This document shows, piece after piece, positions 35,585-41,675 of a stretch of DNA of 64,000 nt. The position numbers and the translations under genes were made by a program. The notes under the pieces are model-generated. The model did not search any database and was not told where the DNA came from. It worked only from the letters and a program-made list of their open reading frames with translations. Position 1 is the stretch's first letter; every line of letters starts with the position of its first letter. The DNA is from Gemmatimonadaceae bacterium. Lineage in GTDB: Bacteria > Gemmatimonadota > Gemmatimonadetes > Gemmatimonadales > Gemmatimonadaceae. The stretch covers positions 1 to 64,000 of the forward strand of contig JACCRF010000077.1 in the NCBI GenBank assembly GCA_013813715.1, in the 5' to 3' direction.

Positions 35585-35983
35585 ATGTTGGACACGTTCG
35601 AGTCGCCGGCTGGCGGTTACTTCGAGGAAGGCGACGCGAGGATGTGGTACGCGGTAGAAGCTGACGACGCTGCGGCGGGTCCGACGGGCAGTGACGATCC
35701 GGAAGACGAGATCATCGTGGACGGGGATTCCGAAAAGGACGATGTCGATGACGACCTCGACGAGCTTGGGCTGGACGACGAGGACGATGACGATGACGAC
35801 GATGATCTGGATGATGATGACGATCTGGACGACGATGATGATGACGATGATGATGACGACGATGATGATGACGACGACGACGACGATCTGGATGACGACC
35901 TCGTTGACCTGGACGATGAGTACGACACAGAGGACGATGACAAGCACAAGGGTCCCGGCCACATGAGGCGTTATCAGGACTGA
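35585..35983 (+). CDS. Extremely Asp-rich low-complexity protein
   Basis: About 132 aa downstream of typA. A strong AGGAGG lies at 35568-35573. The ATG at 35585 is 11 bases beyond it; TTG at 35581 has better spacing and is a possible start. The N-terminal 45 residues are ordinary (MLDTFESPAGGYFEEGDARM, then WYAVEADDAAAGPTG). About 70 residues of nearly pure Asp with sparse Leu, Glu and Val follow, ending in a basic tail (KHKGPGHMRRYQD). The DNA is a GAY-triplet tract prone to slippage. No function is recognised; cation binding or nucleic-acid mimicry are possibilities only. Confidence 0.72.
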   Translation: MLDTFESPAGGYFEEGDARMWYAVEADDAAAGPTGSDDPEDEIIVDGDSEKDDVDDDLDELGLDDEDDDDDDDDLDDDDDLDDDDDDDDDDDDDDDDDDDDLDDDLVDLDDEYDTEDDDKHKGPGHMRRYQD

Positions 35984-36728: not shown

Positions 36729-36802
<74 letters not shown>

Positions 36803-36925
36803 TCAACTACAACTCGTTGCCCTGCTTGAAGCTACGTCCGCACCGCGCGCCCGTGGGAAGCGGGGCTATCTTCGCTGCCCGCCCCTGCCAGTCTTCAATG
36901 CTAACACCACTTCAGTTACGCTCCA

Positions 36926-37868: not shown

Positions 37869-37919
37869 GCCTGATAAGGTGAGATCCGAGGCTCAACTCC
37901 TCGATGGCCTATCAACTAC
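37869..37919 (+). repeat. Near-identical copy 2 of tRNA-Ile 3' half and flank
   Basis: From GCCTGATAAG through GGCC and the flank ATCAACTAC, this matches 36759-36810 with one deleted base and about three substitutions. It includes the anticodon GAT and extends 8-9 bases past the tRNA, but there is no 5' half, so it cannot be a working tRNA. Confidence 0.8.
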
Positions 37920-37961: not shown

Positions 37962-39353
37962 GTGAGCGTCCGCCGAATTCTTTCGTCCTTCTGGATGCCG
38001 GCCCTCCTCTGGGCGGCAGGGCTTGCTTGCTACCATTTCCTGATGGCAGCGCTCAAGCCTGCCACGGGCGAGATCCTGCCCGAAACGTTTCCACTGTACG
38101 CCGAGATATTACCGGTCGCTGATGCATGGGTTGCCGCGCCTGTCTTGGTGTTCGTCACGTGGATGCTGCTGCTGCGGTGGTTCAACGGCCATTCGGGACA
38201 CGATCCGATCCCGATTCCAATCGTGCTCCTTTTCGTGCTGGCGATGAACGTCTCGATGGCAGTCACCCGCGACGGATTCTTCGCGCTGGCCGCACCGTTC
38301 ACGCGGATCACCACGGAATACTTCGGTGACATCGGCAAGGTCAACGACGTGGGCGATTTCCTGCGCAATTATTCCCAGCTTTCGCCGACATTGTCACTGC
38401 ACTCGGGAACGCATCCGCCAGGGCCCGTCCTGTACCTGTGGCTGGCCACGAAGCTTGTCGCGACGGGCACTCTGCGAAAGCTCTGGCTCGCGGTCGCGGC
38501 CGCGCTAGTCGGGACTTCCCTTGCGTCGGTGCCGTTTTACAAGCTCGCGCGCCACCTGTACGGCGAAAAGGTCGGAAGATATGCGCTCGGCATGTACGTC
38601 GTGACGCCGAGCCTGGTGGTGTTCGGCGCGACATCGATGGACGGCGTGTTCCTCCTTTTTCCGATGATTGCCGTGTACTACTTCCACAAGAGCTGGAAAG
38701 AAGCCCCGATCCGGTACTCGATCTACACCGGGCTCGCGCTGGCCGCGGGAATGATGTTCACGTTTGCAACGGTGTGCGTCGGATTTGTCTTCACGATCGA
38801 AGCGATTCTTTCACTTCGCAGGTCCCCGCTGTCGAAACGCATCTGGAAAAACCTCGTGTACGCGGGGGTCACCTTCGTCGCTGCGTATTGGCTGCTCTTC
38901 TACGCGACGGGGTACAACCTGATCGACGTGTTGCGCACGGCCATGCGGACGGCCTCGATGCTGACGGGCTCGATGTACTCCGACATCCTGCACTACTTCA
39001 ACGTCAGCGTCGCCAACCTCGCGGCGTTTCTGATCGGCGCAGGGATCATCGCGGTCGCGCTCTGGTGGCGCGAGGTATGGAAGGCATGGGACGACTGGCG
39101 GGGGCGGAGAGAGCCCGATCTCATCGCTGGCGGTTTTGCCGCGGCGATCGTCGTGTTGACGTTCTCGACATTGTTCTCGACCGAGACCGAGCGGGTGCTG
39201 ATGTTCCTGATCCCGTTCGTGCTGCTCCCGGCCGCCCGGAACCTGAACACCTATATGACTGCCCGACCAAACTCGAACGCATGGTACGGCGTCATCGTCC
39301 TGTTGTTCGTTCAGACGCTCGCTACGCAGCTCGCGCTTTACACTGGTTGGTGA
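37962..39353 (+). CDS. GT39-like membrane glycosyltransferase
   Basis: 463 aa integral membrane protein with about 10 hydrophobic segments and a lumenal loop SGTHPPGPVLYLWLATK (about 146-162), the HPPGP signature of dolichyl/undecaprenyl-phosphate sugar transferases of the GT39/GT83 kind. GTG start at 37962. Such enzymes add sugars from a lipid carrier to proteins or glycans at the outer face of the inner membrane. It is the first coding gene after the tRNA fragments and is convergent with the CHAT gene. Confidence 0.82.
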   Translation: MSVRRILSSFWMPALLWAAGLACYHFLMAALKPATGEILPETFPLYAEILPVADAWVAAPVLVFVTWMLLLRWFNGHSGHDPIPIPIVLLFVLAMNVSMAVTRDGFFALAAPFTRITTEYFGDIGKVNDVGDFLRNYSQLSPTLSLHSGTHPPGPVLYLWLATKLVATGTLRKLWLAVAAALVGTSLASVPFYKLARHLYGEKVGRYALGMYVVTPSLVVFGATSMDGVFLLFPMIAVYYFHKSWKEAPIRYSIYTGLALAAGMMFTFATVCVGFVFTIEAILSLRRSPLSKRIWKNLVYAGVTFVAAYWLLFYATGYNLIDVLRTAMRTASMLTGSMYSDILHYFNVSVANLAAFLIGAGIIAVALWWREVWKAWDDWRGRREPDLIAGGFAAAIVVLTFSTLFSTETERVLMFLIPFVLLPAARNLNTYMTARPNSNAWYGVIVLLFVQTLATQLALYTGW

Positions 39354-39392: not shown

Positions 39393-41675
39393 TCAGAGCG
39401 GCTGAACCTCGCCACGCGCCGCGAATACGTCGATGACCACATCCAGCTTGTCCCTCTCCTCGAGCGCGAACGTCGTCTTTCGGTAGGTGCACGCTTCGTC
39501 GAAGGTCTTGTTGCGTTCGCAGACGTAGGTGGCTTCTACGAGCGCGATGTCACCCTGCGCGACCAACTTCACCAGCTCGTCGGCATCGGTCATTGTCCAC
39601 CCCTCACCAAACTTGCTCGTCCGAATGCGGCCCTCGCGCTTACCCCAATACTCCTGCTGCGCTTTGTCAGTCAGCCAGTACCCGACGAACGTGTGGCCGT
39701 CGATGAGAACGATCACGGGGTGGATGCCGACGTACTCCGCGCAAGCCGCGATCAGAAGCGCGAGATCGTGGCAGGTGCCAAGCTTGTGTTCGACGACCTC
39801 TGTGTGAGTACGGACTATCTGCCCCGCCGGGCGCTTGGAAACCGAATCGAAGACGGGGCTGCCAGGAGGAGAGATGTAGGTAATCCCGATTGAATCGTCG
39901 CGCAGCGTCTGGAAGATCGCCTTCATCTGCGTTGACACGTACTCGGGTTCAGGACTCTGGTAGCCATTGAAGGTGTCGTTCGGGTGACCGAGAGTACGCA
40001 GGACCTTCTTGGCGTAATCGAAGACTTTGAGCACGCCCTCATCGAACGGATTGACAAACGCCGGGATGAACGCCCAGGTATCCTCCTGATCGAGCCACTC
40101 TTTGGCGCCCATCCATAGTGCCGTCCGAGTTTGTCCGGAGATGGTCGTGCCATCGGGCGAGGTCAGGGTCGCGGTGAAGCTGACTCGACGGCGACCGGCT
40201 TCACGATCGATAAGCTCGTGCAAAGACGGAAAGTGAATGTCGGTGGTGTTGACAGGCACGGCGCCTTTCTTGAGCTGCACCGTCTGGCGAAAGGTGGAAA
40301 TGTTCGAGCCCGTGTCGCACTCGATGCAGAGGTGCACTTGCTGCTCGCTCGGTGACTCGATGCTGATGTGCTCGATCGGGTGCAGCCCATTAACAAGCAG
40401 AGCGGGGTTGATCGACTGTCGTGGCCTGAACTCCAGGTGAAGGCCTTGCTGCGCGGGACTCACCGGCACGGACACGATCGCCGGAGAGTCCTGGACCAAC
40501 GCAGCGGGCGCTGGAACAGCTTCCTCTGGCGGGTGACCTGGCGTCGGTGTGGTCATCTTGCGGCCGCCCGCCCTTTTGGACGTGCCGGTTCTTTTCTTCG
40601 CGGCGACCTTTTTGACCGATTCAACGGCCACATCGGCGCCAGCAAAAGGACGCCACGACACCCACTCAGGTGACGGGAGCCAGAGCACCGGGACATCCAC
40701 TGGCAGCCGGGCAGTTCCGATCGTTCGCGCGAAAGAGCGAACCGCCAGGAGCGGCGACCTCCCCTCGAGCAGGCGCTGGTAGAAGTAGAACGTGAAATCG
40801 GCCGCGACGTCATCGTTAACCATGGCTGGCCAGCCGATCGCGACGACTTTCAGAGAACGCGCGATTTGTTCGCATCCGCGAAGTCCGGCGTGACAGGCAT
40901 TCACGACCACCATCCGCAGATGCCGGTTCTTGCTCAGCGCCTCGTTAACGTCATCGAGCGGTACCGCGTCGATCGGGCGGCTGGACGTTGTAGCGGACGG
41001 GCGGCGCGACGAAGACCTCTTAGGGGACGCGCCAGTAGTCGGGACGGCCAACTGGCCGCTCTCGAGGACGAGCGACGGCGGCGAAAGATGCAGCACGCCG
41101 ATGCCGTCTGTCGCGCAGGCCTCGAGAAACTGCGCGCGTGTGGCATCGGCGAGCATCTGTAGTTGCAGATGGCGGCTGTCCACTTTGCGCGGAAACTCCT
41201 GCAGCTCGCGTATGACACCAGGGAGCGGGTACCCGGTGAGGTTTGTCCAACCCGCCAACAGCATCCGGAGCGAAGCGGCGGCCGCAGGGTGGGACTCCCC
41301 GTTGAGCTGACACACGCGGACTACGGACACCCGTCCCGCGGCGTTTCCCGTCGGCAGGAGGATCTCCTCCCAGGGCAGGCTCGAAAGTCGGACGTCTTCC
41401 GCGTGAACGCACAGAACCGAGTCGCCGTCCAGATCGGATGTCCATTGTTGAAACCAAGGGGCGAATCCGGGCGGATCGAAGTCCTCGGCGTATCGGCGAA
41501 GGACGCGGGCGCGCAGCGCAGCGTCCGAGTACTCGTGCTCCTTGATGTCGGCCTGAAGCTTCTCCGCCACACCTACAGCGGGTCCGTCGAATGTCTGACG
41601 AGATCCGTTCGAACTGACCGTGAATACAACGTTCTCTGCAGGCGAAAGGGACAAGTTCAGCGTCACCGTGCTCAT
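39393..41675 (-). CDS. CHAT-like domain fused to a transglutaminase-like domain
   Basis: 760 aa. Residues about 85-335 fit a CHAT (caspase/separase-like) domain: LSSLPWEEILL (98-107), VLHLSPPS (194-201), VVVNACHAGL (256-265, candidate nucleophile Cys261), and VNDDVAADFTFYFYQRLLEG (286-305). The normal second-His motif (HxxGHG) reads HLSPPS, so the catalytic His appears replaced by Pro. A Lys/Arg/Pro linker (about 355-395) leads to a beta-rich region (about 405-545). Residues about 560-760 contain a transglutaminase-like core: Cys635 in GTCHDLALLIAACAE, His661 in IDGHTFVGYWL, and an acidic residue near VEAT (about 714), like the leading domain of some DUF4011-type helicases. No partner gene is adjacent. 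Defence or signalled proteolysis is inference. Confidence 0.78.
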   Translation of the reverse strand: MSTVTLNLSLSPAENVVFTVSSNGSRQTFDGPAVGVAEKLQADIKEHEYSDAALRARVLRRYAEDFDPPGFAPWFQQWTSDLDGDSVLCVHAEDVRLSSLPWEEILLPTGNAAGRVSVVRVCQLNGESHPAAAASLRMLLAGWTNLTGYPLPGVIRELQEFPRKVDSRHLQLQMLADATRAQFLEACATDGIGVLHLSPPSLVLESGQLAVPTTGASPKRSSSRRPSATTSSRPIDAVPLDDVNEALSKNRHLRMVVVNACHAGLRGCEQIARSLKVVAIGWPAMVNDDVAADFTFYFYQRLLEGRSPLLAVRSFARTIGTARLPVDVPVLWLPSPEWVSWRPFAGADVAVESVKKVAAKKRTGTSKRAGGRKMTTPTPGHPPEEAVPAPAALVQDSPAIVSVPVSPAQQGLHLEFRPRQSINPALLVNGLHPIEHISIESPSEQQVHLCIECDTGSNISTFRQTVQLKKGAVPVNTTDIHFPSLHELIDREAGRRRVSFTATLTSPDGTTISGQTRTALWMGAKEWLDQEDTWAFIPAFVNPFDEGVLKVFDYAKKVLRTLGHPNDTFNGYQSPEPEYVSTQMKAIFQTLRDDSIGITYISPPGSPVFDSVSKRPAGQIVRTHTEVVEHKLGTCHDLALLIAACAEYVGIHPVIVLIDGHTFVGYWLTDKAQQEYWGKREGRIRTSKFGEGWTMTDADELVKLVAQGDIALVEATYVCERNKTFDEACTYRKTTFALEERDKLDVVIDVFAARGEVQPL

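Follow-up and report, generated by a model that had tools for sequence, protein, structure and literature searches.

A pseudo-CHAT domain fused to a transglutaminase-like domain in a Gemmatimonadaceae bacterium, and candidate membrane-acting partners at related loci

Introduction

Bacterial gasdermin systems combine a gasdermin (bGSDM) with a caspase-like (CHAT) or other protease, and a CHAT protease gene near the gasdermin gene is an arrangement known for bGSDMs (reviewed in PMC9612521). Caspases are also paired with alpha/beta-hydrolases in NTP-dependent conflict systems, in which transglutaminase-like (TGL) peptidase domains are rare occupants of the same slot (PMC7159879). The CHAT domains of Craspase/Csx29 (8eey) and SAVED-CHAT (8tl0) have an intact His-Cys pair and are accompanied by TPR or SAVED sensors. 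A TGL module leads the 1900-aa helicase ProA, an anti-phage protein of the DUF4011/DUF3320 type; no paper describing ProA was found in the literature searched. Enzymes of the TGL fold may be amidases, deamidases, cross-linkers or inactive.

The gene described here lies in a 64,000-nucleotide stretch of Gemmatimonadaceae DNA, the whole of which we call the window. Its product has the CHAT fold in common with Csx29 and SAVED-CHAT, but lacks the catalytic His and both kinds of sensor. With ProA it shares the first 312 positions and a Cys-His-Glu set; the module here is C-terminal to the CHAT domain, however, and there is no helicase or nuclease part. Relatives of the gene, like the NTP-dependent conflict systems, pair a caspase-fold protein with an alpha/beta-hydrolase. 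Unlike those systems, their caspase-fold half is inactive and fused to TGL, the two genes form a stand-alone unit, and the CHAT-TGL neighbours examined included no recognisable VMAP, vWA or MoxR gene. The likeness to bacterial gasdermin systems lies in the CHAT fold and in two close orthologues (loci L038 and L039) that are co-operonic with a gasdermin-like gene; the differences are the lost CHAT His, the added TGL domain and, in the window copy, the lack of a gasdermin.

Results

The CHAT-TGL gene occupies positions 39393..41675 of the minus strand as an intact ORF of 760 codons, with an ATG start and a stop at 39393, and the 3.7-Mb genome has no second copy. A preliminary description made from the sequence had read the ORF, its strand, its length and the key residues (760 aa, Cys261, HLSPPS, Cys635, His661) correctly. 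An AlphaFold model built with 37 homologues had a mean pLDDT of 80 and, together with profile matches, divided the protein into four parts. Residues 1-345 (40641..41675, minus strand) form a CHAT pseudo-protease domain of the separase/Craspase type, delimited by Pfam PF12770 and structural alignment, and are followed by a low-confidence linker (residues 346-411, 40443..40640; pLDDT mostly below 50). Residues 412-530 (40086..40442) make up a domain of mostly predicted beta-strands that is common to ProA, the match to the ProA profile NF058533 beginning at residue 425. The TGL domain, with Cys635, His661 and Glu714, comprises residues 531-760 (39396..40085) and was delimited by model layout, conservation and family profile matches. 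PADLOC returned no match for the window protein. Judged from its sequence, the gene couples a broken CHAT domain to an intact domain of predicted cysteine-peptidase type.

Pfam placed residues 144-318 in the CHAT family (E=1e-8; 35.4 bits against a gathering score of 24), the sole CHAT match in the window genome. In the AlphaFold model, residues 1-342 aligned with Csx29 (8eey_B; VIA-align Z=21.2, 284 aligned, rmsd 3.2), residues 131-344 with the SAVED-CHAT protease 8tl0 (Z 20.7) and residues 1-345 with separase (about Z=20). Because the Csx29 and separase alignments span them, residues 1-345 represent a complete CHAT/separase-type region. The family profile also matched the solved structure 8tl0 by sequence (E=1.9e-9), with HFIGHG of 8tl0 aligned to HlaGvd of the family (catalytic GHG opposite G[VF]D) and NAC aligned to nly (catalytic Cys opposite Tyr). 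From this alignment, the His position in the window protein is Pro200 and the Cys position is Cys261. The catalytic His of the [G]HG motif is thus absent, the sequence reading HLSPPS instead (residues 196-201; Pro200 codon at 41076..41078, minus strand, register from the 8tl0 alignment). The catalytic Cys is present in NACHAG (VVVNACHAGL; Cys261 codon at 40893..40895, minus strand, placed by the family alignment). The preliminary description had called a CHAT region with its His lost and its Cys kept, and the profile match, the Csx29 alignment and the motifs all agree with that call.

The His was gone in 41 of 41 aligned fused proteins, the window's included, and six split CHAT ORFs also lacked it (H[VI]TG[VI]D, the HVTGVD type). 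The position is Pro in the window protein, L038 and L039, and Phe, Val, Leu, Ile, Met or Cys in the other 38 aligned fused copies. Tabulation of the residues at Pro199/Pro200 found Pro-Pro in both close orthologues (SPPS, SPPA), which makes it a conserved feature. The CHAT Cys is kept in 7 of the 41 aligned members, in two groups on the tree, and lost in 34.

Residues 425-760 matched positions 3-312 of the 1903 in NCBIfam NF058533 (anti-phage ProA) at E=1.5e-46; the score was 158.6 bits against a cut-off of 1500, the helicase part being absent. Among 28 sequences of the CHAT-TGL, helicase-TGL and TIR-TGL types, Cys635, His661 and Glu714 were invariant, and nine columns in all, including Cys, His, Glu, Gln and Arg, were invariant across the three architectures. 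Across the CHAT-TGL family, the TGL Cys and His are invariant and the Glu nearly so. DUF553 was matched by 21 of the 28 members and Transglut_core by 15 (best members, E=9.5e-6 and E=1.3e-4, respectively); the window protein itself fell below the DUF553 cut-off (E=0.071, 13 bits vs 20.5). In the model, Cys635 lies at the start of a helix, His661 at the start of a strand and Glu714 after a strand, within a block of pLDDT 94-97. The only solved TGL member matched by Foldseek was PNGase 2f4o (rank 50, E=5e-3), VIA-align barely covered the TGL part, and the TGL profile had no match among PDB sequences. The predicted TGL fold therefore rests on profiles and on the layout of residues and secondary structure, not on fold search.

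To place the gene in a family, a five-member alignment was scanned against 84,980 species genomes, yielding 80 loci; a single-protein query of the same genome contigs gave no matches, unlike the alignment scan. These loci being the top matches from a motif scan, with near-copies among them, counts from them are no census. Of the 80, 40 were CHAT-TGL fusions and six, in Bradyrhizobium, had only TGL; the rest were helicase-TGL proteins, several of them short or truncated at a contig end. Fusions occurred in Planctomycetota, Gemmatimonadota, Acidobacteriota, Pseudomonadota, Verrucomicrobiota and Myxococcota. In the six Bradyrhizobium loci (L040, L041, L042, L043, L045 and L048), a separate upstream CHAT ORF overlaps the TGL gene, which is followed by an alpha/beta-hydrolase gene; overlapping genes in one operon are an independent sign that the two halves act together. 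Whether fused or encoded by two overlapping genes, CHAT and TGL thus occur together at 46 further loci among the best 80 matches, and the new arrangement suggested earlier is not singular. The window protein grouped with L039 (Thermoanaerobaculia, Acidobacteriota) and L038 (Planctomycetota) with 100% support, and was identical to L039 at 46% of CHAT, 67% of beta-domain and 69% of TGL positions. Two scans of viral contigs found neither CHAT-TGL nor the upstream gene X described below. Plasmids held no full-length CHAT-TGL, and the TGL matches listed from them were mostly annotated as DUF4011 or DUF3320 helicases which, with the NF058533 match, upholds the link to DUF4011-type helicases noticed at the outset.

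Among the 43 relatives with a readable neighbour, 38 had a gene for a lipase-like alpha/beta-hydrolase of the DUF7379 type immediately alongside and in the same orientation (tallied by domain start), the two genes often overlapping by 4 bp. Conserved in the hydrolase are HGTFS, an Asp, a His and the nucleophile elbow HSRGG, whose Ser is invariant. L087 (9224-12003), one of the five exceptions, has an SGHG/DAC caspase and a PGAP1-like alpha/beta-hydrolase downstream of its pseudo-CHAT-TGL gene. In the wider flanks of hydrolase-type loci, 81 neighbours showed no enrichment for defence and were mostly ordinary metabolic genes; we therefore dropped defence-island context as support for these loci.

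The two orthologues closest to the window, L038 and L039, are further exceptions, with gene X upstream of CHAT-TGL in place of the hydrolase. The two X proteins are 43% identical, and at L039 X overlaps the CHAT-TGL start as TGATG. A seven-member X profile had a sole match in the PDB, the gasdermin 7n50 (E=0.008). The PADLOC bGSDM model matched X of L038 (E=1.1e-4) and had no match in the other six X proteins scanned. Alignment by hhalign with four canonical bGSDMs of the window's phylum gave 95.9% probability over 197 columns, against 0.06-0.3% for unrelated and reversed controls. The AlphaFold model of X, built from two sequences, reached a pLDDT of 30, and the identity of X rests on the profiles. 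By these profiles we conclude that X is a divergent gasdermin, of a branch that the bGSDM model of PADLOC largely fails to recognise. Within the window clade, the linkage to gasdermin is based on the two loci; of the 29 other genomes with CHAT-TGL that were searched, none has X, and within the window's phylum just 3 of 395 genomes have it.

X has other neighbours elsewhere. On the Gemmatirosa kalamazoonensis plasmid CP007129 (genome G033, contig C3; L036, 7401-9698), it adjoins a fusion of a TIR-like domain to TGL that has no CHAT, which makes TGL the obvious candidate activator there. On an Embleya plasmid (L126, 4104-7723), X stands next to a CHAT gene, and on a Mesorhizobium plasmid (L127, 6986-13347) it lies ~2.5 kb from one. 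In G368 (L123, 7965-8792), a subtilase gene lies a few kb from X, and a nucleotidyltransferase-like gene is also close to it. At L039 (3385-6548), genes for a response regulator-TCAD9 and a response regulator-CHAT protein stand just upstream of the gasdermin and CHAT-TGL. The protease of the latter is intact, with AGHG and SCC motifs, and the TCAD9 and response-regulator proteins make this a conflict-system setting.

Two profiles found neither X nor a canonical bGSDM in the window genome, and no hydrolase was adjacent to or near the window gene. A weak, sub-cut-off DUF7379 match on another contig was not taken as a partner. The assembly has 183 contigs and is 96.6% complete, which makes absence of a partner likely, not certain; the window copy is likely an orphan, with no partner beside it. 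The preliminary remark that there is no obvious partner thus describes the window copy and fails for its relatives, which have a hydrolase (38/43) or a divergent gasdermin (L038, L039). The convergent neighbour (37962..39353, plus strand) encodes a PMT_2-type mannosyltransferase (Pfam E=1.7e-11), with no evidence of a functional link to the CHAT-TGL gene.

Both genes were absent from the other 18 genomes of the same genus, in keeping with the earlier label of an accessory segment. The segment is bordered by tRNA-Ile(GAT) (36729..36802, plus strand), and a 41-nt direct repeat of the tRNA 3' end (37879..37919, plus strand; 93%, a copy of 36770-36810) forms an attachment-site-like scar, so that its tRNA-adjacent position was also correctly noted. 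The two repeat copies are 1109 bp apart, the second ~1.1 kb downstream of the tRNA. This repeat and the absence from congeners would fit acquisition by horizontal transfer at a tRNA site. Just before the tRNA, positions 35585-35983 encode a small protein in which a long stretch is rich in aspartate (poly-Asp).

Discussion

We propose, tentatively, that CHAT-TGL could be the regulatory or processing half of a small membrane-attack cassette, the partner of the window copy having been lost or being encoded elsewhere. The pseudo-CHAT half would serve as a docking or sensing scaffold, and the TGL half would be an active cysteine peptidase (or amidase) that frees the partner from inhibition, by analogy with the CHAT, trypsin-like and other proteases that activate known bacterial gasdermins. 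Once freed, the lipase-like hydrolase or gasdermin would damage the membrane, and the cell would then be killed or arrested, plausibly in phage defence. The defence connection made in the preliminary description holds insofar as the TGL module is shared with anti-phage ProA; it is indirect, the hydrolase-type loci being flanked mostly by metabolic genes.

On sequence grounds, TGL is likely the active peptidase of CHAT-TGL. It is favoured as activator at the Gemmatirosa locus and at L038, since no other adjacent protease was recognised at either; at L039, the nearby intact CHAT protease could be the activator. That a TGL-fold cysteine peptidase, not a caspase-like protease, activates the divergent gasdermins and the lipase-like executioners of the sister clade, with pseudo-CHAT as a docking or sensing scaffold and the same module gating ProA, may be so, but we hold this fuller proposal to be doubtful.

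The module might instead be a shared sensing or adaptor unit, its Cys-His-Glu set used for ligand binding or self-processing and not as the key enzyme. Its outputs would be a helicase-nuclease in ProA, TIR in Gemmatirosa, and pseudo-CHAT with a hydrolase or gasdermin in CHAT-TGL. The varied placement of the module fits such a role: it is N-terminal in ProA-type helicases, C-terminal in CHAT and TIR proteins and stand-alone in Bradyrhizobium, and several helicase matches from the same bacterial family begin no earlier than profile position 334-352 and so are without it. Nine invariant columns, the Cys, His, Glu, Gln and Arg among them, nevertheless exceed what a mere scaffold would be expected to keep, and we consider the adaptor role rather unlikely.

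The preliminary description saw TGL as a terminal toxic effector, acting on host or phage proteins under pseudo-CHAT control. In favour of this are the inactive CHAT domain, the complete TGL residue set and the lack of a partner for the window copy. A dedicated lipase-like gene in 38 of 43 relatives and a gasdermin in the close orthologues are, however, more natural effectors. We find TGL less likely as terminal effector than as activator or processor of such membrane-acting partners, and improbable as an effector in its own right.

We give little credence to the view that the window copy is an orphan decaying after horizontal transfer, with no present function. The partnerless genome, the 18 congeners without the gene and the tRNA scar alongside would all be expected of such a remnant, but the ORF is intact over 760 codons, the invariant TGL residues are kept, and identity to L039 remains at 69% in TGL and 67% in the beta domain. 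Protease activity persisting in the CHAT half of the window clade, through Cys261 and a displaced base, is highly improbable: although the three clade members all keep Cys261 (NAC[HFE]AG), as does one other clade, each of the three has Pro where the catalytic His should be and no replacement His is conserved there.

A cassette in which TGL acts on a membrane-damaging partner remains the interpretation we prefer. The operon class of pseudo-CHAT, TGL and lipase-like hydrolase, spread over six phyla, was not found in the papers searched, and a search of the open-access literature gave no paper that links a bacterial TGL peptidase to a gasdermin, or that describes CHAT, TGL and a hydrolase together. 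The window clade also exposes the divergent gasdermin branch, and one enzyme module proves common to an anti-phage helicase, TIR proteins and pseudo-caspases. These loci make it directly testable whether a TGL peptidase can replace caspases in pyroptosis-like death.
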